The notes under the pieces are model-generated. The model was given only the letters and a program-made list of their open reading frames with translations. It had not been told where the DNA came from and did not search any database. Shown in pieces: positions 1,097-23,653 of a stretch of DNA of 24,314 nt. The position numbers and the translations under genes were made by a program. Location: positions 1-24,314 of IMG/VR virus record IMGVR_UViG_3300035703_000404; one strand, written 5' to 3'. Each line of letters begins with the position of its first letter. Positions within the stretch are counted from its first letter, which is position 1. The DNA comes from a virus.

Positions 1097-1686
1097 GAAG
1101 TTATCTCGTCGGCTGTGCAATCTCCGTATGCTGCAAGTGTCACTGGGTTTCGTAGTTCCAGTGTGTAACTCCAAGGCCCAAAGTTTGTGCCTGGAAACCT
1201 GACCCATATCAGATGTGATGTTGCGGCATTCTCTGGCGTTTCATTTTTGCAGCACTGCTGATAGCTATAGTTGATAGACACCAATGCCACGGGTGCAAGA
1301 TTGTTGGTGTAAACAACGACGTACCAGTCCTCAACTTCCAGTGTGTCGTTTGCTGCTCCCAGTGGTTCCCATCGAACAGGCGTCGTCTTCTTGACGTACA
1401 CGACTCGCCGTGAAGTGTCTGGGTCCATACATAGCGGCGGGAACGCTGTGATCTTGTATTCGTAGCTCGTCATGTAGCGGCACACCCAATCAGGGTGCCA
1501 CATTCTGATAGCCTCTGGAATGGTGGCAGCAATGAACGGTTCGTTCTGGAATGATCCAGAAGCGACGGTCAGGTTTGCGCATCCTCCCGGTGGTCCCACG
1601 GCTCCCGCTCCAGCCACACCACCAGACTGTCCTTCAAGTCGGCACTCACACGGATACTTGACGCACGGGCAACAGATGCCTGTCAT
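1093..1686 (-). CDS. Hypothetical Cys-rich phage structural protein (197 aa)
   Basis: The family is not recognised. The N-terminus is unusually Cys-rich (CCPCVKYPCEC at residues 5-15), followed by a Gly/Ala/Pro stretch (about 20-36) and then a mixed beta-type domain with aromatic residues (WVCRYMTSYEYK, VEDWYVVVYTN, YSYQQCCKNE). The start ATG at 1686 overlaps the stop of the Gly-Ser-repeat gene as ATGA, so the two are translated in tandem. Because the upstream protein ends in a Gly-Ser linker with no domain after it, this protein may be the detached last domain of the same multidomain tail appendage (inference). It lies downstream of the tape measure, where tail-tip and fibre proteins normally sit. 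Confidence 0.7.
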   Translation of the reverse strand: MTGICCPCVKYPCECRLEGQSGGVAGAGAVGPPGGCANLTVASGSFQNEPFIAATIPEAIRMWHPDWVCRYMTSYEYKITAFPPLCMDPDTSRRVVYVKKTTPVRWEPLGAANDTLEVEDWYVVVYTNNLAPVALVSINYSYQQCCKNETPENAATSHLIWVRFPGTNFGPWSYTLELRNPVTLAAYGDCTADEITS

Positions 1687-2615
1687 GACCCACTCCCTGA
1701 TCCGCTACCAGATCCAGATGATGAGCATGGATCAAACCTGTCAGCCAGTGCGCCGCCAAAGTACCAGATCCTCGCGTACTGAGTGATCTTAATCCCGGTG
1801 ATTGGGCAACACTCGATCTTCTTCGGAATCTCTGCGACACACCGCATTCGCTTCCCGAACATCACGACCCAGCCGTTCCATCCATCAGCGTTCGATCCGC
1901 TGCCACTGCCACTGCCACTGCCGGATCCGCTTCCTGATCCACTGGCAAACCCATCGCATGTCGGCCACTTTGCCACGCCGACTTTCCCCGCCTTGTACCC
2001 GGCAGGAACGAGTACCATCTCCACGCCGATCTCATTGCAAAGACTAAAATTCATGTCCAGAAACGACGTGTCTCCACTGCCCCCGGAGCCGCTGCCCGAT
2101 CCACTGCCGGAACCGGTGAGTGCTGGCCCACAGGACACAGCACTGAATGTTGCAAGATCTGCGGTCTCGTATAAGGTGACTGGCAGTAGTGAATCTGCTT
2201 GTCCTGAGTCCTGCGATAAAATTCCAAACGCGAATTGAGCGCTCTTGCCGCCACCGACGTAGAAGTACCACTTGTCCTGATACAGCTCTTTGGCGAAGCC
2301 AGCAGTTTCGGCTGAGTAGGAATTTGGCGTTCGGTTATAGGCTTTGACGATGGAGGGGGCCGGTTCATTGGCCCAGCCGTTTCCGACTTGAATAGCGGTC
2401 TTGATCTGGAAGTTTGCTGACGTGGGCACGTTTGGATCATCGGTGCCGTCGAGATCTTCAAGCAGAATCCCTTCGACGATGGGCACGATCCGGCGCCGGT
2501 TTGGACCGCGAAGTTCGTTCGGCAGTCCTCTTGCGGTTTCCACCTCACGCGTGGCATTGGCAATGCGGACGAACGATCTTTGTCCAACCAAAAATGCTTT
2601 TTTGTCGTCTGCCAT
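1683..2615 (-). CDS. Gly-Ser-linked multidomain tail-region protein (310 aa)
   Basis: No named family is recognised. It has three modules separated by long (Gly-Ser)n linkers at about residues 168-181, 225-241 and 299-310 (numbered from the ATG at 2615), the last linker ending exactly at the stop codon. The first module starts MADDKKAFLVGQRSFVRIAN and is about 165 residues. The second and third modules are about 43 and 57 residues and contain Cys pairs. Linkers are encoded by repeated AGTGGC/AGTGGA hexamers, which makes length change by slippage plausible. The frame is also open from a GTG at 2630. The ATG at 2615 is preferred by sequence, but neither site has a convincing Shine-Dalgarno. Position after the tape measure suggests a tail-tip, fibre or adhesin-like protein. 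Confidence 0.75.
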   Translation of the reverse strand: MADDKKAFLVGQRSFVRIANATREVETARGLPNELRGPNRRRIVPIVEGILLEDLDGTDDPNVPTSANFQIKTAIQVGNGWANEPAPSIVKAYNRTPNSYSAETAGFAKELYQDKWYFYVGGGKSAQFAFGILSQDSGQADSLLPVTLYETADLATFSAVSCGPALTGSGSGSGSGSGGSGDTSFLDMNFSLCNEIGVEMVLVPAGYKAGKVGVAKWPTCDGFASGSGSGSGSGSGSGSGSNADGWNGWVVMFGKRMRCVAEIPKKIECCPITGIKITQYARIWYFGGALADRFDPCSSSGSGSGSGSGS

Positions 2616-2638
2616 GAGAGAACCCAGCACAAATGAAA

Positions 2639-11447: not shown

Positions 11448-12878
11448 CTACGGATGAGTCAGCGACTTCACAGGGTTGTCGCCAGCGTTCAGCAGGTTGC
11501 CGTCCGCACGAACGAAAGCGATGAACGCCTCCTGGTCGCTTTCGGCGTATCGTTCAGCCAGTCGGCGGAATCGAACCTGACCGACCATTCGCAGCTTGTA
11601 AGAGGACAAGCGGCCGAACAGCATGGACTTCACGCCTGAAGCAGCGTTCGCCATATCATCGTTGATGATGTAGCGGTAGTTGTTCATCGTGTCCGGCGCT
11701 CCCGTGTTGGCGCCAGCCTGCCACAGATAGCGGTTCTGGCTATCCTTCAGCTTGCGGACCAGTTTCAACGTGTCATCGTTGAACATGTACGAGCAAGCCG
11801 CACGGTTTGCTCGGATCGCACGGTTCACGCTGTGCTCGAGGTCGATGATTTCATCGAACACGATTGCAGCAGCTCCGGCCGCAGTCTTGCCAGTCACAGC
11901 ACGGGTAACGATCCCCCACATCGTCGAGGCACCGTCTCCGGTGGTGCCTTTTTCGTTCAGGATGCGGCCCAGGCGTTCACCCAGCATTTGCGGGATGACG
12001 TTTTCCAGACCGACGGCATTGTCCTGCATCAGTTCGTACGGAACTTTGATCATGTCCGACGTGAACTTGTGGGCGTACCACAGAGTGTTCCCGAAGCTCG
12101 GATCGAGATCGGCAACGTCGCGGGCTTCGCCAATCTGACGGCCCTTGTTTGCGGTGTCATCCGCAGTCGGCCAGCGCATTTCCTCGCCGGTTTCCGTACG
12201 GATCACGTCAGCAGCTTCCATGATGCCGGAACTGGCAATCATGGCAATTTCGAGACGGTTGACGAAAGTCGTCCCGAACAGATAGCCGCCAGTGGAACCA
12301 ACGTTGCTTCCGAGCGAGTTCATGAATTCGTCCGTGTTACCGGAACGAACGGCATTCTGCAGCGGGATGAAGTCGCCCGTATCCAACAGGCCGCAGGAGA
12401 TTTCCCGAACGGCAGGGTTGAAGTTCAGGTGCTGGCAAGCCGCTTGCGCTGCAGCGTCAGACCGGCCAGAGAGCCACGCAGCAAACGCCAGAGCGCCAAC
12501 CTGAGTGGTAGTCATTCCCTTCAAGACGCCATCGGTGATTCGGCCGTCACGACCGGTGCGGAAATCGCCACCGCCGGAAATCAGGCGGTTCTTCTGGCTG
12601 GACTCAAACCGATTGCCGTGACCGGCCATCTGATTGATTTTCTCCAGACGACGAGCGGCGTTCTCGGCGGAAGTCGCTTCGGATTCACACGCCTTGATGT
12701 GGGCGTCGAGCTGTGAGTACACAGCGTCGTAGTCGGCTTCCATCTTGGAAAAGACGGTGTCGTGCTCAGCCGACCACGTTTTCTCGTGCTCGGTGTGGTA
12801 AGCCTTCATCTCGTCGTGGAGCTTCAACCGCTTGTCTTGCAGAGCGGCCAACTGATTTGGGTCGGTGATCTTGGTCAT
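11448..12878 (-). CDS. HK97-fold major capsid protein with N-terminal delta-type scaffold domain (476 aa)
   Basis: Residues 1-95 are a charged coiled-coil helix (LAALQDKRLKLHDEMKAYHT onward) like the delta scaffold domain removed by the prohead protease. The rest matches phage_capsid family features: GGYLFGTTFVNRLEIAMIAS, TGEEMRWPTADDTANKGRQI (P-domain to E-loop region), FGNTLWYAHKFTSDMIKVPY and a C-terminal GRLSSYKLRMVGQVRFRRLA. GAGGA lies upstream of the ATG as a Shine-Dalgarno. The 5' leader carries a strong hairpin (12924-12982) and an initiator-like tRNA, and a terminator follows. It assembles into the icosahedral shell. Confidence 0.93.
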   Translation of the reverse strand: MTKITDPNQLAALQDKRLKLHDEMKAYHTEHEKTWSAEHDTVFSKMEADYDAVYSQLDAHIKACESEATSAENAARRLEKINQMAGHGNRFESSQKNRLISGGGDFRTGRDGRITDGVLKGMTTTQVGALAFAAWLSGRSDAAAQAACQHLNFNPAVREISCGLLDTGDFIPLQNAVRSGNTDEFMNSLGSNVGSTGGYLFGTTFVNRLEIAMIASSGIMEAADVIRTETGEEMRWPTADDTANKGRQIGEARDVADLDPSFGNTLWYAHKFTSDMIKVPYELMQDNAVGLENVIPQMLGERLGRILNEKGTTGDGASTMWGIVTRAVTGKTAAGAAAIVFDEIIDLEHSVNRAIRANRAACSYMFNDDTLKLVRKLKDSQNRYLWQAGANTGAPDTMNNYRYIINDDMANAASGVKSMLFGRLSSYKLRMVGQVRFRRLAERYAESDQEAFIAFVRADGNLLNAGDNPVKSLTHP

Positions 12879-12923
12879 TGCGAGTCGGTCCTCGTGACTA
12901 TGTCACTGGACGGCAAAGCAACA

Positions 12924-12982
12924 AGGCGGACGCCGGCCAGCGACTTCCTGTGAAACAGAAAATCGTTGGTAGTCGTCCGCCT
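12924..12982 (-). other. Long structured hairpin in the capsid leader
   Basis: The outer stem AGGCGGACG/CGTCCGCCT (9 bp), middle stem CCAGCGA/TCGTTGG (7 bp) and inner stem CTGT/ACAG (4 bp, loop GAA) are stacked and separated by two symmetrical four-by-four internal loops, spanning 59 nt. It lies 45 bp upstream of the capsid ATG and downstream of the tRNA. There is no T-run, so it is not a simple terminator. A processing site (RNase III type) separating tRNA from capsid mRNA, or an mRNA-stabilising leader, is inferred. Confidence 0.65.
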
Positions 12983-13071
12983 CGTGAAGACTCGGCAGCA
13001 GATCACCTATGCCATGGCGGTGAAGACCGATCCGGCATGCTTTCGAATTGAGATCAGCCACACGGCTGAAG

Positions 13072-13146
13072 TGGCAGTGACGGGATTTGAACCCGCATCT
13101 TCCGGCTTATGAGGCCGACGAGGTCACCAGATGCCTCTCCACTGCG
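13072..13146 (-). tRNA. tRNA with CAT anticodon, initiator (fMet)-like
   Basis: The minus strand folds into a complete 75-nt cloverleaf: D stem GAGG/CCTC, anticodon stem TCGGC/GCCGG with loop CTCATAA (anticodon CAT), variable AAGAT, T arm GCGGG-TTCGAAT-CCCGT, and acceptor CGCAGTG/CACTGCC with discriminator A. The first acceptor pair is a C1xC72 mismatch, and the D stem has A11:T24, both hallmarks of bacterial initiator tRNA. The block CCTCGTCGG.CTCATAA closely resembles bacterial tRNA-fMet. It departs from the classical three G:C anticodon-stem pairs at the third (C31:G39). The CCA end is not encoded. It lies between two virion genes in the late operon. Confidence 0.88.
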
Positions 13147-13158
13147 TCGTTGTATCAT

Positions 13159-13194
13159 GCCTGCCGTGCTGGCATAGAGCCAAACACGGCAGGC
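13159..13194 (-). other. Strong hairpin just upstream of the tRNA
   Basis: On the minus strand GCCTGCCGTG pairs perfectly with CACGGCAGGC, with an inner TGGC/GCCA stem. It ends 12 nt before the tRNA 5' end and lies after the stop of the 146-aa gene. No T-run follows, so processing or mRNA 3'-end protection seems likelier than termination. Confidence 0.6.
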
Positions 13195-13217: not shown

Positions 13218-13658
13218 TTACGCCGTGCCTTCGTTTGGCGCGACGAGAACCTCGTTTCCAATAGTTGACTGAGTGACTGGCACAACCTGCGGATTCCCAA
13301 GGATCGCGACGATGCCATCCAGCACAACGTTGGCAGTTGTGCGGGTTAGAATCAGCTTGAGATAGCGTTTGGTTGGCCGCATGACCTCAACGGCGATGAT
13401 CTTATCATCATCGGTATCAGTAGCGGCGAATGCTGACGCCTCCAAGTCACTGTACGCGTCAGTTGCACCATCGTCGCTTGACTGCTGCACCTTGATTGCT
13501 GGAACACCCGTCGAGGTGACAGTGCCGAGCATCGTCAGAAACAGGCAAGAGTTAAAGCCTTGCATGTCAATGCCAGCCGTTGGCGTAATTGTGGAGGTTC
13601 CAGCAGCCGCCCCTGCATTGTGACGCACAATCTTTGTGTTGTTCAGTAATCCGAGCAC
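13218..13658 (-). CDS. Probable virion protein, unknown family (146 aa)
   Basis: The GTG start at 13658 has GAGGG eight bases upstream. The sequence is beta-rich (MQGFNSCLFLTMLGTVTSTG, AIKVQQSSDDGATDAYSDLE, KRYLKLILTRTTANVVLDGI). This pattern recurs in small phage proteins encoded next to capsid genes that are usually unnamed. Position between prohead protease and capsid suggests a head decoration or accessory head protein, but this is inference. A degenerate copy of the operator (13718-13735) stands 60 bp upstream, and a strong hairpin and the tRNA follow it. Confidence 0.72.
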   Translation of the reverse strand: MLGLLNNTKIVRHNAGAAAGTSTITPTAGIDMQGFNSCLFLTMLGTVTSTGVPAIKVQQSSDDGATDAYSDLEASAFAATDTDDDKIIAVEVMRPTKRYLKLILTRTTANVVLDGIVAILGNPQVVPVTQSTIGNEVLVAPNEGTA

Positions 13659-13769: not shown

Positions 13770-14585
13770 TCAGCCGAACCGTGAAGCGAGTTGGCTCCGG
13801 ATTGCGTTCAACTTTTCAGCCCGCAACGCAGCAGCGTGACGGCTGCTCATGGACTGCAGTCTCGACTGAATGTCGTTCGCTGGCTTCTCACTGCCGCTCG
13901 CATTGGATTCGCCAGACTCTTCTTTTTTGCGAGTCTTCAGCTTAATCAATGCGTCCGCGAAACCGTATTCCACAGCCTGCTTGCCGCTGAAAACTGTTCC
14001 GTCGTGATTCTCGCCCTCAAACCACTTCACGATTTCGTCACGTGTTCGCCCGGTCCTGGCGGCGTACGTGTCGATAATCTGTCCGTCCAGAGTTTCCAGC
14101 CAGTTTGCGCTATCACGCAAGGCAAACCGGTTGCCCATGGTGTAAAGCCAGGCAGGGTGGATGCCGAGCGAACCATTTTCCGCGATGTTTATGACGTCTG
14201 CGGCCATCGGAATAATGGAAGCGGCACTGTAGCCGATGCCCGTGATATTCGCCGTGACCTTCTTCGGGTGCTGTGCGGCTGCATTGTAGATGGCAATGCC
14301 ATCGTAGGCCGATCCGCCGAAACTGTTGATGTCGAAGGCGAGTTCCTTGTCGGCGTGCTTTTTGATTTCGGCGACAACTGTGTTCGAATCCAGCCCAACC
14401 CATGAATCACCAATGGAATCATGCATCATGATTACGAGTGTGGTGACCTCATTTTCGACGACTTCCAACTTGCATTGCAATGAACTCTCAGTCACTCGTG
14501 CGAACGGCTGGCCATCGGAGTTGCGGAACAGTCGGGACTTATCGGCGGCTGCACTGAAAAACTGGCGAAAACGATCAGATCGCAT
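13770..14585 (-). CDS. ClpP-like (S14) head maturation protease (271 aa)
   Basis: Residues 80-130 carry the ClpP-fold signature: DINSFGGSAYDGIAIYNAA with the oxyanion-hole Gly-Gly (90-91), then ITGIGYSAASIIPMAADV with the likely catalytic Ser (S120 of YSAAS). A conserved His follows (H143 in SLGIHPAW), and an Asp at 167 or 172 completes the probable triad. After about residue 215 comes a charged tail ending in a helix (HAAALRAEKLNAIRSQLASR). It sits between portal and capsid and overlaps the portal 3' end by 11 bp. It is expected to cleave the capsid delta domain during prohead maturation. Confidence 0.92.
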   Translation of the reverse strand: MRSDRFRQFFSAAADKSRLFRNSDGQPFARVTESSLQCKLEVVENEVTTLVIMMHDSIGDSWVGLDSNTVVAEIKKHADKELAFDINSFGGSAYDGIAIYNAAAQHPKKVTANITGIGYSAASIIPMAADVINIAENGSLGIHPAWLYTMGNRFALRDSANWLETLDGQIIDTYAARTGRTRDEIVKWFEGENHDGTVFSGKQAVEYGFADALIKLKTRKKEESGESNASGSEKPANDIQSRLQSMSSRHAAALRAEKLNAIRSQLASRFG

Positions 14586-16302
14586 TGAATATCTCCTTAT
14601 GCCACAGGTCCGTGACAGTTTGCTGAAACTCTGCCAGAAACGCCTTCACGTTCCCTTCCAACTCCGCCGGCTTGTGTGGTGGCTCCAGAAAGACACTCAC
14701 GCCAGCAGTCAAAACACCTGTCAGCCATTGCCGACTGGCCAGCATCAACAAAGATGCCTTTTGTTCGTTCACTACGCAACTCAGTGACACGTCCAGTTCT
14801 TCATCGACAATCGACTGGTGATCAACAGCTTTGCTGTCACACCACGCCAGCAGATCGTTTGGCTTCCGAGCCTTGTTCTGGCACACGGTCGCCAATCGCT
14901 TGGCAGCACGCGAAACCGCCTGGTCGAGTAGTCGCTTGTGAGACTTCGACGGCGTGGCGGCTGACTGCGTGTCTGTGTCTTCAGGATCTTCCGTGTCATC
15001 AGTCGACCGGGAACGCGACGTTCCCGCCTGACTCGTTTCGGCCGGTCGGTCCGTCTGGCCTCGAGTGCTCGGGTTGTAATACTCGCTCGCCTTTTCGTCC
15101 GCGCGGGCAGGGAGATTGATTTTCTTCCGCCAGTCGTTGGCGTTGATGACCTCGTTCTGGCGCTGAATCGCGAGCACCTCGTTGAGCGTCTTGATGTCCG
15201 CTTCGACGAGCTTGGAAAAGTTGTGTTCGAACCGGTGAGACCGTGCGCGGCGGGTTCGCTCACTGAGAAGCTTAATGTTCGCTTCGCCCTGAATTCGGGA
15301 CGTGACGTGCAATAAGCTTCCCATGATATAGGCTTTAGCAGCCTGCTCAGCCGAGTTGTAGGACTCGGAGTTTCGCAAACCCAGCTTCCAGGGCGGCATG
15401 TTGAAGAAGTGACAGACGGCCCGGGCTTCGTCGTCGTTGAGCTCGTGCATCTGCGCAGCACGCGGATCCACCGTCGCGGAGTGCCATTGAGCACCTTCAC
15501 GCAACACCAGCGTCTTGAACCAGTTTGCCGGGCTTGACCGCTTAGCGACGCCTTTCTCCAGATTTTCCACGCTCTTTGGTGTGGTGCCGGGAGGAATACT
15601 AAGGATCCCGCCGTGATGCCCGCCACGCTCAAAGAACTTGGACAGATACAGCTTTCCGGCCAACGCCAGACCGAGCTCATTCCGCATCAGGTTGATACAG
15701 GAAAGAGCCTTGCCGCCACCAAGTGACAGGCCTTTCAGGTGAAAGACTTCCCAGTGATTCAAGATATGGACTTCGCCGTCCAGCATCAGTTCATAGACCA
15801 ATGCGCCGGTGTCTTTGTCGATCAGTGGCGTGACGGCGGTCGGGACCAGATTTGCCATCCACTGAATCGGACCGTTTGGAGCCCCGCCTTGTCGGCCAAT
15901 GTAGGCGTACCCGTTTCCGAACAACTGGTGGTGAAAAACGAGGTTTTGCCAGCCTTCATTGGCTGGAGTCAAGTCGTTCCATTGCAGAGAACAGACTCGC
16001 TCGCACGACTGGTTGTAGTCGATATCGTCAGCACCGGGTTCCACGTCGTTTTTGTGACAGTGCAGGGTGGCTGCGCCAACATCCGCTGACTTGATTTCCA
16101 GACACTGATAGACCGGACCAAAACGCAGGGCTTCTTCGGGACCGATCGACAGTCCGCTGTCCGCTCGCTGATGCCCTAGCGTCTCCCAGAAAGCCGGATC
16201 GTCAAGGCTGACTCGTGGATCTTCCAGACTTCCAGCCGAACGCGCATTACCACGCCGGGCTGGCAGCAGTCTGTTGAAAAACTCAGCGAGGTCTGGCAGC
16301 AC
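14575..16302 (-). CDS. Portal protein, HK97 family (575 aa)
   Basis: Residues 60-400 match phage_portal features: RFGPVYQCLEIKSADVGAAT, WQNLVFHHQLFGNGYAYIGR, a WEVFHLKGLSLGGG segment, LYLSKFFERGGHHGGILSIP and ARAVCHFFNMPPWKLGLRNS. The C-terminal portion (about 400-575) has a Ser/Thr/Asp-rich linker (TSRSRSTDDTEDPEDTDTQS) and then a helical domain of unknown role, making it longer than a minimal portal. The start is a GTG at 16302, overlapping the upstream small membrane protein gene by 20 bp. The portal forms the dodecameric DNA gate. Confidence 0.92.
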   Translation of the reverse strand: MLPDLAEFFNRLLPARRGNARSAGSLEDPRVSLDDPAFWETLGHQRADSGLSIGPEEALRFGPVYQCLEIKSADVGAATLHCHKNDVEPGADDIDYNQSCERVCSLQWNDLTPANEGWQNLVFHHQLFGNGYAYIGRQGGAPNGPIQWMANLVPTAVTPLIDKDTGALVYELMLDGEVHILNHWEVFHLKGLSLGGGKALSCINLMRNELGLALAGKLYLSKFFERGGHHGGILSIPPGTTPKSVENLEKGVAKRSSPANWFKTLVLREGAQWHSATVDPRAAQMHELNDDEARAVCHFFNMPPWKLGLRNSESYNSAEQAAKAYIMGSLLHVTSRIQGEANIKLLSERTRRARSHRFEHNFSKLVEADIKTLNEVLAIQRQNEVINANDWRKKINLPARADEKASEYYNPSTRGQTDRPAETSQAGTSRSRSTDDTEDPEDTDTQSAATPSKSHKRLLDQAVSRAAKRLATVCQNKARKPNDLLAWCDSKAVDHQSIVDEELDVSLSCVVNEQKASLLMLASRQWLTGVLTAGVSVFLEPPHKPAELEGNVKAFLAEFQQTVTDLWHKEIFNAI

Positions 16303-16544: not shown

Positions 16545-16865
16545 TTAGGCCGGAACCTTCGGACGTTGCGGCTTTCGGTCTGCTGGCGCTGCGTTCGACC
16601 TCCGCTCCCATCCGCGTTTTTGCAAATGTTCGGCGTGAGCGAGAGTGATCGGCATATACTCGATACAGTTTCCCGCCGGGTCTCCGCCTTGCAAAACCAT
16701 GACTTTGTTCACGACCATTTCACCGACGCACAACCCTGGGAACGGTTCGACCGGAAGCACAATTTCCGGACCGTGCAAGACTCCTGATCCCGGAATATGG
16801 ACCTTTACGAACTGATGCCAACGAATCGAAGACGACATTTTACTAGCCCTTCTATGACGTTTCAT
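16545..16865 (-). CDS. Hypothetical protein (106 aa)
   Basis: The ATG at 16865 overlaps the upstream stop as ATGA, which decides the start over a longer open frame to 16883. The sequence begins with a basic stretch (MKRHRRASK), followed by a compact segment (RWHQFVKVHIPGSGVLHGPE, GEMVVNKVMVLQGGDPAGNC) and a basic C-terminus. No family was recognised. It sits among head genes but away from the usual set. Confidence 0.62.
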   Translation of the reverse strand: MKRHRRASKMSSSIRWHQFVKVHIPGSGVLHGPEIVLPVEPFPGLCVGEMVVNKVMVLQGGDPAGNCIEYMPITLAHAEHLQKRGWERRSNAAPADRKPQRPKVPA

Positions 16866-17359
16866 CGACCTACCACATAACAAACGTAATCTGCCACATC
16901 CAAACCGTGGCCTCGCATGACGGCCACGAACTTCCCATGTTGACGCCCGTCTTGCAGATCCCGAACCTGCTGAGACGTCAGTCGCAAAAACAAATCGTGG
17001 TGAAGCGGTGGCGACTCGCTGCCACCGATCGCCGAAACCAATGCAGACCCCACAGCGTTTGGCGTGTTTAGCCGCAAAGTAATCTTGCAGAGATGAGTTC
17101 CGACCAAAGACTCATCAACCACGAATTGCGGCGAAGCTGATTCCTTTGACTGAAAGAACTCTGTCACTTGCGCACGTGAAACCATTTGCACGGTTCGCGT
17201 TCCAGCACGACCACGATACTTCGGTTCGTCGAAACTCCACGCCTGCACGCGTCCAGCGTCGATAGCGGCTCTCAATCGTCGATCCGAAACACCAGCTATC
17301 TTCAAAGCTTCGGACCTTTCAATCAGATCGCTCGGCGGCTTCTCATCGTGTGGCGTCAT
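16862..17359 (-). CDS. HTH (MerR/excisionase-like) DNA-binding protein (165 aa)
   Basis: The ATG at 17359 overlaps the large terminase stop as ATGA. Open frame upstream of it is a shadow. Residues 10-70 (LIERSEALKIAGVSDRRLRA, AIDAGRVQAWSFDEPKYRGR, then TVQMVSRAQVTEFF) have the shape of a winged-helix HTH of the MerR/excisionase type: helix, turn, recognition helix, wing and return strand. The C-terminal part (90-165) includes LFLRLTSQQVRDLQDGRQHG and is unassigned. A DNA-binding protein coupled to terminase could contact DNA during packaging or act as a late regulator. It is one candidate to bind the operator copies, but there is no direct evidence. Confidence 0.68.
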   Translation of the reverse strand: MTPHDEKPPSDLIERSEALKIAGVSDRRLRAAIDAGRVQAWSFDEPKYRGRAGTRTVQMVSRAQVTEFFQSKESASPQFVVDESLVGTHLCKITLRLNTPNAVGSALVSAIGGSESPPLHHDLFLRLTSQQVRDLQDGRQHGKFVAVMRGHGLDVADYVCYVVGR

Positions 17360-19257
17360 ACGTACTCCACCGGATTGTCGTCGTAGAAGTTCAGCGTCTG
17401 AATTTCCCACTCTTTGTTGTCCAACGCTCCCCACCGAGACATGACCGAGGCCTGGCAACCGTCGACCGTACGAAATGACTTACGGTCCTCCTTCTGAATC
17501 AGGCGATGTCCTCGAGCATCCTCCTTGACAGTCGCATGCCCGAACTGCCACGTGAGGACCGGATTGTCCTCATGCCTGATGGCGCCGCGTTTGAGATCGT
17601 TTTCAAAGTCTGCGACTGGTCCAGTCTGAGTCAGCATGCCCTGCGAAATTGCCTGTTCGCCGATCGCCAGTCCTTCGAACATCAACGTGCCGTCCGGACC
17701 GAACTCGCCTTCGAGCAAATCCTGTATCAGCGATTCGGCATACGTGGCGTCGTAGACGATCCCGACCACCTGCCGCCGATGACAGAAGTCTCTGAGGTCT
17801 CGCTTGATGACGCGAAGATCGGTTACGTTCCCCGGGTTGACCCGAATCAATCCCTGTTCGACCCACTGCAGCACAACCGGGTGATGGATCGCGAGTTCCT
17901 TGATTCTCGCCTCGTTGCACCAGAACATCGGATCAACAATGTCGATTGACTCGTTCTTGTTTGGTGACGTTGGAACAGCGGCGGCGAGGTCGAACTTCCT
18001 GGCGAGGTCCAAACCCAAAACCCACTGCCGCTCTGACAATTCCTTCTGATCGAACTTATGACCACCGCATCCGGCCCAAACTCCGGGAGCCAGCCAGCCC
18101 TGTTTGGCGTGCTGCCAAACGTTTAGGCGGTACATCATGTAGTCGGCGAAGTCTGCCGGCGAAGTCACAGACTTGTGAAACGCTGGCAACAGTTCTTCCA
18201 TTCCAACGGTATGACCGAGCGACGGATTAGCCATCCGAATGTAGGCCTCCGGATCCTTCTTCGCTTCCTCCGCCGACAAACGCTGTGGCGCATTGTAGGA
18301 CTGATGGAAGAAGTCATCGAGTGCCCGCTTGCCTTCGTTGACTTCTTCGCCGACGTCCCATTCGCCTTTGCCGAATCCTTCAGGGTTGTTGCCCGCGGTC
18401 GAATACGCAAGGTTTAAGGGCTGAGGACGTGAAGCTCCGGCAAACTCCAGAATCTTCATGAACGGTCGCGTCACAACGTGAGTCTCATCGACGATCACGT
18501 TCCCGTTCAGACCTTCCTTCGACTTCTGATTGTTAATGTTGCCAGACGACAACGGTTCGAAATGGCTTGTAGTCGGATGGAACTTCACCTGATGCGTGTT
18601 CATGTTCGGCTTGCACGCTGCGGCAAGCTCCGGAGACCGAACCAGCATCTGATACGCATGCTCCCAGACTCGAATCGCCTGAGCACCATCCAGCGCCGCA
18701 ATGAACGTCTTGGCGCCGGGTTCGCCATCACCACAAGTCAGGTAGAGCGTGTTAAAAGCCAGTGATGGCGTTTTGCCACTCTTCTTTGGGATCCAGACTC
18801 TGGCCGTGCGAAATCGTCGAACCTGCTGCAACCCGACTCTCTGCCATCGTTCAGCCGCAACTCGCTGCCAGCCATAGATTCGAGCGTGGCATTCGAACTG
18901 CCAATGCATGAACTGGCCACTGTGGAACAGATCGTTGTGCCACTTCAGGCGAGACAAATAGAAGTCCACAACCTCCGGAACTGGCTGATCGTCGTCACCA
19001 TAGAAGACGGGAAACAGATCGGGAATCTCTTCGTAGTTCGGCTGATCCACGTGCGACAACATGATGACCGGCTTGTCGGCGAAACCTTCCCCTTCATAGA
19101 GTCGGCAGTATCGCTCAACCCACCAAATCATGTAGGCAGCACGAATCGGATCAAACCAGCAGCCGTTGTTGACCGCGAGTTCGTCAGCTTTATTCCGCAT
19201 CCACGGTTCTGTGGCGGCTTTCTGGGCTTTGCTGAGTTTCTTCCACGACTTCGCCAC
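17356..19257 (-). CDS. terL: Terminase large subunit (633 aa)
   Basis: The ATPase domain carries Walker A IPKKSGKT at about 156-163 and Walker B NVIVDETH at about 253-260, with the motif NLAYSTAGNN further on. The C-terminal nuclease domain has a first acidic strand in WVLGLDLARKFDLAAAV and a later VGIVYDATYAESLIQDLLEG, fitting Terminase_1/phage_terminase proteins of HK97-like phages. The start is GTG at 19257 overlapping the small terminase stop by one base (TAGTG), so the two are coupled. It cuts and pumps DNA into proheads through the portal. Confidence 0.94.
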   Translation of the reverse strand: MAKSWKKLSKAQKAATEPWMRNKADELAVNNGCWFDPIRAAYMIWWVERYCRLYEGEGFADKPVIMLSHVDQPNYEEIPDLFPVFYGDDDQPVPEVVDFYLSRLKWHNDLFHSGQFMHWQFECHARIYGWQRVAAERWQRVGLQQVRRFRTARVWIPKKSGKTPSLAFNTLYLTCGDGEPGAKTFIAALDGAQAIRVWEHAYQMLVRSPELAAACKPNMNTHQVKFHPTTSHFEPLSSGNINNQKSKEGLNGNVIVDETHVVTRPFMKILEFAGASRPQPLNLAYSTAGNNPEGFGKGEWDVGEEVNEGKRALDDFFHQSYNAPQRLSAEEAKKDPEAYIRMANPSLGHTVGMEELLPAFHKSVTSPADFADYMMYRLNVWQHAKQGWLAPGVWAGCGGHKFDQKELSERQWVLGLDLARKFDLAAAVPTSPNKNESIDIVDPMFWCNEARIKELAIHHPVVLQWVEQGLIRVNPGNVTDLRVIKRDLRDFCHRRQVVGIVYDATYAESLIQDLLEGEFGPDGTLMFEGLAIGEQAISQGMLTQTGPVADFENDLKRGAIRHEDNPVLTWQFGHATVKEDARGHRLIQKEDRKSFRTVDGCQASVMSRWGALDNKEWEIQTLNFYDDNPVEYV

Positions 19258-19891: not shown

Positions 19892-20143
19892 CGTCACGTG
19901 GTAGCGTGGGACGTGGACGCCGTCACGTGGTGGCGTGCTCGGCGACGTAGAGCCGCCGTGCGTCGCGTGGTGGCGTGCTCGGCGACGTAGAGCCGCCGTG
20001 CGTCGCGTCGTGGCGTGCTCGGCGACGTAGAGCCGCCGTGCGTCGCGTGGTGGCGTGCTCGGCGACGTAGAGCCGCCGTGCGTCGCGTGGTGGCGTGCTC
20101 GGCGACGTAGAGCCGCCGTGCGTCGCGTCGTGGCGTGCTCGGC
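19892..20143. repeat. Tandem array of 40-bp direct repeats
   Basis: Five complete 40-bp units (19921, 19961, 20001, 20041, 20081) are followed by a 23-bp partial unit at 20121-20143 and preceded by a degenerate partial copy at 19892-19920. Units are nearly identical. The base at unit position 9 follows the pattern G,G,C,G,G,C, so the array is really a duplicated 120-bp block. Each unit contains GCGACG and CGTCGC as a short inverted repeat. There are no unique spacers. The array sits in the divergent control region and could be a set of iterons (replication origin), a partition-type site or a packaging-initiation site. Open frames across it are by-products of its composition. Confidence 0.9.
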
Positions 20144-22171: not shown

Positions 22172-23653
22172 ATGCTGGCATTTGTCAACGTCCACAATTT
22201 GCATCGAACCGCGCGCGAAGTCGTTTCTACGTTTCGCCGAACTACTTCCGAGCCGGTTCCGTTCGGCGGTTCAATCACACTCTCAACAGGAACCCAATTG
22301 ACGGGAACCCGGAACGCGTTCGGCGCTATCGTCTGGACGATCACAGAACGTCCAGGCGACGTTTTGACGGTTGCGGAATGGCACGAACTCTGCGACGTTC
22401 AACAGGGACGCAACACGGTTCCGGCTCCGGAGCCGGAACCCGTCAAAGTCGAACCCCTCCGCGCTTCCATCAACATCAACCGCAAACGGTTTTTGAACGA
22501 CGTTAAACAGGCGGTTTCGCACAACAAACGTGCCGCGCGTCAGTTGGTTGTCATGCGGTTCGGCGAACGCGTTCGGCTCGAATCATTCTCCGGCCATTCT
22601 CTTCTGACGTTGTGCGTTCAGACTGAGACAACTGACGGGGAATTGTCGATCGTCATTCCCGCCGAACGTTTGGCCACAATCCTGGCCAAACTCACTGCCG
22701 TTGATATCACAGTTTCCGCCGAGCTCAATCCCGCCGGTTCAACGGAACTGACAATCGAAACTGCAGACGGGAAGTTCTCACTACCCGCCGAACCACTCAC
22801 AGATGACTTTGCGTCACTCACCGAGCCATTCCCCGCAACGTTTGCCAGTGGCGTTAGCGCTGGTGACTTGAGACGCGCGATTCTGGCCACTGAATACGCA
22901 ATCGATGAACAATCAGGCCGGTTTGCTCTTGGCGGATTGTGTTTCGATATCACTCCGGAGTCTATCAATGTGGCCGGAACTGATTCCAGACGTTTGGCCG
23001 TTGCAACGGTTCCCGCCGCGATTGTCGGGACGTTGCCGGATGGCTTCGATTCTATGGAGATGAACACGCGTAAAATTCTCGTTCCAATGCGGATTGTGAA
23101 CGAGCTCAAAACGTGCCTTGCCAGAATGGTTGATTCTGAGTGGGTTTACGTGGCCGGTTCGACGTTGTCTCAGTTGGTGATTGAATCGGAAAACGCGTTT
23201 TCAATCCGCGGGCTGCAATTAGAAGGACGATTCCCCAGTTATCGGGACGTCATCCCACGCAATCCGCCGGCCATCATCACCATGAACCGCAAACGCCTGA
23301 TTCAATCATTGGAGACTGCCGGCCTGGTTTGTGATGAAGAATCGCGCGGGGTAGATATGGAATTCCGAGCCGGTTCCGAGCTCTTGACGGTCCGCGGGAA
23401 ATCACCATCTTGCGGGAAGTCAGAAACAACGTGTCCGATTGTTTCCGGCTCCGGAGATATCGGGGTTCTGACAAAAGACGGCGCGCCGTTCGTCATTACG
23501 TTCGATCCAAAGTATCTCATTGAGTCACTCCGAACTATGTCCGATGAATCGGCAAGTTTGGCGTTTCACGATTCCGATACGGCCATGGTTTTGACCAGCG
23601 CGGAGGAATCAACCGTCTCTCATATCATCATGCCACTGTCAAACGAACGTTAA
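22172..23653 (+). CDS. dnaN: DNA polymerase III beta sliding clamp-like protein with extra N-terminal domain (493 aa)
   Basis: Residues 97-493 follow the DnaN pattern of three clamp domains. Conserved blocks include VAGTDSRRLAVATVPA at about 268-283, EGRFPSYRDVIPRN at 351-364 (the GRFPxYxxVIP motif), then KRLIQSLETAGLV, and a C-terminal SHIIMPLSNER like the usual YxxMPxR end. Normal DnaN is about 370 residues. Here a 95-residue N-terminal extension (FGGSITLSTGTQLTGTRNAF, WTITERPGDVLTVAEWHELC) precedes a Pro-Glu linker (VPAPEPEPVKVEP). The extension was not recognised. The clamp tethers polymerase to DNA. A phage copy implies some independence from host replication. Its own terminator cassettes lie on both sides. 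Confidence 0.88.
   Translation: MLAFVNVHNLHRTAREVVSTFRRTTSEPVPFGGSITLSTGTQLTGTRNAFGAIVWTITERPGDVLTVAEWHELCDVQQGRNTVPAPEPEPVKVEPLRASININRKRFLNDVKQAVSHNKRAARQLVVMRFGERVRLESFSGHSLLTLCVQTETTDGELSIVIPAERLATILAKLTAVDITVSAELNPAGSTELTIETADGKFSLPAEPLTDDFASLTEPFPATFASGVSAGDLRRAILATEYAIDEQSGRFALGGLCFDITPESINVAGTDSRRLAVATVPAAIVGTLPDGFDSMEMNTRKILVPMRIVNELKTCLARMVDSEWVYVAGSTLSQLVIESENAFSIRGLQLEGRFPSYRDVIPRNPPAIITMNRKRLIQSLETAGLVCDEESRGVDMEFRAGSELLTVRGKSPSCGKSETTCPIVSGSGDIGVLTKDGAPFVITFDPKYLIESLRTMSDESASLAFHDSDTAMVLTSAEESTVSHIIMPLSNER
22417..22440. repeat. Perfect 24-bp palindrome inside dnaN coding region
   Basis: GGTTCCGGCTCC is followed immediately by its exact reverse complement GGAGCCGGAACC. It encodes the Pro-Ala-Pro-Glu-Pro-Glu-Pro linker that joins the extra N-terminal domain to the clamp. 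The core is the CCGGAGCCG element of the intergenic palindromes. Confidence 0.8.

Follow-up and report, generated by a model that had tools for sequence, protein, structure and literature searches.

An initiator-type tRNA encoded beside the capsid gene of a phage carries G8/C14 and an inverted third anticodon-stem pair

Few RNAs of the cell are as constrained as the initiator tRNA, and why phages carry tRNAs is a long-standing question. In nearly all tRNAs, positions 8 and 14 are occupied by U and A, respectively. Formylation of the bacterial initiator, tRNAfMet, is determined by a 1x72 mismatch together with G2:C71, C3:G70 and A11:U24, and its use at the P site by three G:C pairs of the anticodon stem (3GC; 29:41, 30:40 and 31:39), which are highly conserved in cells (PMC7949028). 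In structures, residues A1339 and G1338 of the 16S rRNA grip the pairs 30:40 and 29:41, and not 31:39 (PMC11497404).

The DNA analysed here, hereafter the window, is an IMG/VR contig of 24,314 bp (IMGVR_UViG_3300035703_000404). ARAGORN identified a single tRNA in the window, a tRNA-Met(CAT) on the minus strand (13071-13146), which is also matched by Rfam RF00005 (41.6 bits, E 7.9e-6). A previous sequence-only reading had placed the mature body at exactly the right coordinates, and every base and pair that it listed, namely the CAT anticodon, C1xC72 (13146/13073), A11:T24, G29:C41, G30:C40 and C31:G39, is present. ARAGORN, Rfam and a stem-pair comparison with the related contig IMGVR_UViG_3300034092_001327 (hereafter L010) agree on a cloverleaf fold. 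No CCA is encoded after the tRNA body, where CTT comes next. The minus strand carries, in order, genes for TerL, the portal, a ClpP-type protease and a 146-aa protein (phrog_5707), the tRNA, and the gene for an HK97-type major capsid protein (MCP) (Table 1). The proposed placement among head genes was therefore borne out, the tRNA lying between the 146-aa head-region gene and the MCP gene on the same strand, an arrangement kept in L010. A role as attP or tRNA integration site was considered and dropped: the gene is complete and mid-operon, and no integrase was recognised nearby in the general gene annotation.

Table 1. Features of the tRNA locus and the surrounding head operon (window coordinates)
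Feature	Position	Strand	Evidence
Major capsid protein (HK97-type)	11448..12878	-	PF05065 E 4.9e-51; phrog_10
Long hairpin, 31-nt arms, 3-nt loop, between tRNA and MCP start	12921..12985	-	Inverted-repeat comparison, fold z -4.4
Initiator-type tRNA(CAT), mature body C1 (13146) to A73 (13072)	13072..13146	-	ARAGORN, RF00005, orthologue L010:7068-7143
Anticodon loop closed by C31:G39 (13114/13106), inverted vs G31:C39	13106..13114	-	Sequence; also L010
CAT anticodon within loop CTCATAA	13109..13111	-	ARAGORN, sequence
C14 (13133) to G8 (13139), replacing A14 and U8	13133..13139	-	Sequence; kept in L010
Hairpin just upstream of tRNA	13159..13194	-	Folds z -4.8 and -4.0
146-aa head-region protein, no assigned function	13218..13658	-	phrog_5707; 0 gaps vs L010
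ClpP-type head maturation protease	13770..14585	-	PF00574, phrog_94
Portal protein	14575..16302	-	PF04860
Terminase large subunit (TerL)	17356..19257	-	PF20441, PF03354

The window tRNA shares with bacterial tRNA-fMet the anticodon and its CTCATAA loop, a 1x72 mismatch, G2:C71, C3:G70, A11:U24, A73, G29:C41 and G30:C40, and possesses every MTF determinant named in PMC7949028. It differs in its mismatch (C1xC72, against C1xA72 in E. coli tRNA-fMet), in its third stem pair (C31:G39 instead of G31:C39, still a G-C pair), in having G8/C14 instead of U8/A14, as L010 also does, in its 10-nt D loop, and in being borne by a phage within a head operon. Elongator Met and lysidine-type Ile2 tRNAs, which have the CAT anticodon in common with it, are marked by a pyrimidine 11 opposite a purine 24 and by a paired 1:72, whereas the A11:U24, C1xC72 and G29:C41/G30:C40 found here are initiator features. 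Moreover, the mean identity of the window tRNA is 73% to 94 viral initiator-like tRNAs and just 49% to 14 elongator-like CAT tRNAs, part of this gap being built in because the anticodon stem was the criterion for choosing the initiator-like tRNAs. An elongator or Ile2 identity is thus highly improbable, and the initiator-type reading, which had been preferred from the letters alone, is well supported by these sequence determinants. Since the 16S rRNA does not grip 31:39, the inverted pair appears compatible with P-site binding and need not harm initiation.

L010 is the sole relative found with the tRNA locus; its TerL, portal and MCP are 75%, 61% and 62% identical to those of the window, respectively. 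Its tRNA, at the equivalent site, differs at 14 of 76 positions (82% identity). All 20 stem pairs are intact, and three of them (12:23, 28:42 and 51:63) have changed on both sides, although pair statistics from two sequences are weak, with 70 of 500 shuffles reaching these values. The stronger argument is the contrast in identity: in comparison with the 82% of the tRNA, third codon positions of the neighbouring genes are 37-46% identical and neighbouring intergenic stretches 53-56%. The C1xC72 mismatch is common to both phages, and C31:G39 and G8/C14 are kept in both. On account of the compensatory changes and of an identity far above that of third codon and intergenic positions, we consider that the tRNA is a maintained RNA whose fold is evidently under selection. 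The loss of U8/A14 and the lack of an encoded CCA might suggest a host tRNA that was captured and is now decaying, but the compensatory changes, the slow change relative to silent sites and the identical G8/C14 in the two phages leave this origin with very little credence. The more distant MCP relatives (L001-L009) show no tRNA in the stretches covered, and they are uninformative on the age of the tRNA because several of these stretches end at the MCP. Just before the portal gene, L010 carries an ORF resembling a staphylococcal-nuclease-type protein (L010:3069-3656); the small ORF at this place in the window (16862-17458) is a different one.

Hairpins flank the tRNA on both sides. In each phage, the hairpin downstream of the tRNA, ahead of the MCP gene, is the longest inverted repeat (the relative's copy is L033:5892-5956); the region 12918-12991 is 92% identical to L010, and the fold z is -4.4 in the window and -5.9 in the L010 stretch. 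The upstream hairpin has a counterpart at the equivalent place in L010, with its form kept and its sequence different. A search with the tRNA-MCP leader returned no DNA match in phages and one weak match in plasmids (E 0.5). The flanking hairpins suggest that the capsid message is processed or stabilised around the tRNA, and an RNase III site, an mRNA stabiliser or a DNA palindrome are candidate roles for the leader hairpin. The tRNA fold could accordingly be mainly RNA punctuation, a cut site for RNase P and RNase Z that, together with the hairpins, frees a stable capsid mRNA whose 5' end is structured. The strong conservation of the downstream hairpin and the presence of a lone tRNA directly after the capsid gene in several unrelated phages agree with this proposal; however, conservation of the anticodon, C1xC72, A11:U24 and A73 would not be needed for a cut site, and all four are kept; we regard the proposal as unlikely.

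The sequence-only reading had singled out the non-canonical third pair as distinguishing, a claim that a wider survey did not sustain. When IMG/VR was scanned for the C31:G39 core with U24, at least 119 stretches matched, and among the matches listed at least 96 distinct viral tRNAs with C31:G39 and A11:U24 could be parsed. In these 96 tRNAs, again among the matches listed, position 1:72 is unpaired in 62, a weak or wobble pair in 28 and G-C in 6, while G2:C71 occurs in 84, C3:G70 in 80 and A73 in 89. In addition, 24 GenBank phage records (L153-L176) were sampled with a query left blank at 31 and 39, and 20 initiator-like tRNAs were counted, mostly from named phages plus an uncultured record. 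Pair 29:41 varies in 16 of these 20, 31:39 in 7 and 30:40 in none, and all three G:C pairs are retained in four. C31:G39 was seen in Agrobacterium phage Atu_ph07, Streptomyces phage Wakanda, Pseudomonas phage Milchi and Aeromonas phage Aeh1. Because it is common among phage initiator-like tRNAs, several cultured phages included, C31:G39 does not mark the window tRNA out, and it was dropped as an unusual feature, being present in about a hundred viral tRNAs. These four phages and Caulobacter phage CcrBL9 resemble the window in their initiator-like determinants, relaxed outer 3GC pairs and G30:C40, but have U8/A14; furthermore, the Aeh1 and Wakanda tRNAs sit among other tRNA genes, whereas the window tRNA stands alone before the capsid gene. 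Part of this anticodon-stem variation may mimic the hosts' own initiators.

The combination of G8 and C14 was found only in the window and L010 among the 96 parsed C31:G39 viral tRNAs from the matches listed. The G8/C14 core was also absent from about 85,000 GTDB species genomes when searched as an exact match with a fixed D-loop length, a requirement because of which the scan does not exclude all G8/C14 variants. We infer that a G8-C14 contact stands in for U8-A14. A second departure from U8 among viral C31:G39 CAT tRNAs is a group that parses with A8 (D arm GAC...GTC; L040, L061, L086, L087, L101, L114 and L128). G8/C14, the absent CCA and the conserved tRNA-MCP hairpin all go beyond the sequence-only reading; what is new here is the lineage-specific G8/C14, that hairpin and the position in the capsid operon.

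The genomic position of such tRNAs was compared across phages. Among the matches listed, the C31:G39 tRNA is the sole tRNA of the examined stretch in 55 of 94 loci. For lone tRNAs near a long same-strand ORF, a set selected by closeness to the ORF and by ORF length, 10 of the 13 neighbours with an assigned function belong to the PHROG head-and-packaging category (among the matches listed): five major head proteins of four families, two portals, a TerS, a minor head protein and an Ig-domain structural protein. Under a similar selection rule, loci with tRNA arrays gave 0 of 8 (Fisher p = 0.001 vs 10/13), although four of these eight neighbours belong to one exonuclease family and are thus not independent. 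In 20 more loosely spaced lone loci, head genes account for 1 of 11 annotated neighbours (combined 11/24, p = 0.03); the link to head genes is thus limited to a subset, since it weakens when the tRNA lies further from the nearest long ORF. In the five cases with an MCP neighbour the tRNA comes after the capsid gene, whereas in the window it comes before it. The occurrence of a lone C31:G39 tRNA beside head genes in unrelated phages is a lead rather than an established link.

Within the phage and plasmid collections, the closest annotated capsid to the window MCP (46% identity) is that of pPLIM01 (NC_014149, L032), a phage-plasmid of Planctopirus limnophila. Its head and tail module is syntenic with the window, including the order TerL, portal, ClpP protease and MCP, but it is without the tRNA and its gap before the MCP is just 167 nt. 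Because of this capsid relationship, a planctomycete is the likely host of the window phage, a virus of bacteria; the TerL does not lead in that direction. A TerL-profile scan of GTDB did not find a prophage, which says little because both peptide patterns were weak. Elsewhere in the window, a 40-bp tandem repeat (19921-20143; 5.6 copies, 97% match) lies upstream of the terminase genes, an ORF rich in long Gly-Ser repeats (GSGSGS...; 1683-2630, minus strand) lies near tail-region genes, and 22172-23653 (plus strand) encodes a DNA polymerase III beta (sliding clamp) homologue whose nearest phage relatives found, in Nodularia phages, are about 24% identical.

The altered anticodon stem could also reflect evasion of a nuclease. 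According to this explanation, a toxin of the host or of rival prophages would cut the anticodon stem-loop of tRNAfMet, and the phage copy, with G39 and also G8/C14, would be cut poorly and keep phage translation going. In tRNAfMet, the cleavage site of enteric VapC is the bond A38-C39 (PMC4105405), which corresponds to A38-G39 in the window tRNA; toxin escape is attractive because base 39 is altered exactly where VapC cuts. That phage tRNAs are altered at anticodon-nuclease sites is a published hypothesis (PMC10264068), and C31:G39 is widespread in phage initiator-like tRNAs although the 3GC pairs are highly conserved in cells (PMC7949028). The window tRNA resembles the defence-evading tRNAs of PMC10264068 in its change at a known anticodon-nuclease cut site, but it is an initiator, is changed at stem base 39 and is without a known matching nuclease. 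Phages of a VapC host were found, in general, to avoid encoding tRNA-fMet (PMC10264068). Moreover, 29:41 is altered more often than 31:39 in GenBank phages (16 vs 7 of 20), a pattern that may stem from relaxed constraint or from mimicry of the host. Evasion therefore appears possible but doubtful; it is compatible with a functional initiator, and both can hold.

We favour, with a probability of about 0.7, a functional phage-encoded initiator tRNA in the head operon, made with the capsid message and supplying altered fMet-tRNA. That it is expressed, processed, charged, formylated and used in initiation, and when, is predicted from sequence. The tRNA would be co-transcribed with the capsid message, excised by host RNase P and 3' processing, completed with CCA by a host enzyme, charged with Met and then formylated, and extra, slightly altered fMet-tRNA would be supplied during capsid protein synthesis. 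The formylation determinants, the pairs G29:C41 and G30:C40 gripped by the 16S rRNA, the conserved placement and the wide class of phage initiator-like tRNAs point to function, whereas the U8/A14 loss, which could weaken the elbow, the lack of a CCA in the gene and the single relative with the locus count against it. A putative retuning of initiation late in infection is plausible, and the phage may gain tRNA supply, a changed choice of start sites or protection from toxins that cut initiators. Speculatively, many phage families may repeatedly keep a single capsid-side initiator tRNA, its stem rebuilt outside 30:40, which would drive the translation of capsid genes late in infection and evade host toxins or quality control directed against the host's tRNAfMet; in the window lineage, the elbow contact between 8 and 14 would also have been rewired. 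The features that merit further work are the G8/C14 particular to this lineage, the leader hairpin conserved in both phages and the recurrent position beside the capsid gene. Phages are seemingly free to alter the outer anticodon-stem pairs with G30:C40 kept, a natural mutagenesis test of the ribosome's 3GC requirements, and a lone capsid-side initiator copy opens the question of phage tRNAs to direct testing with a single tRNA and a single cut site.
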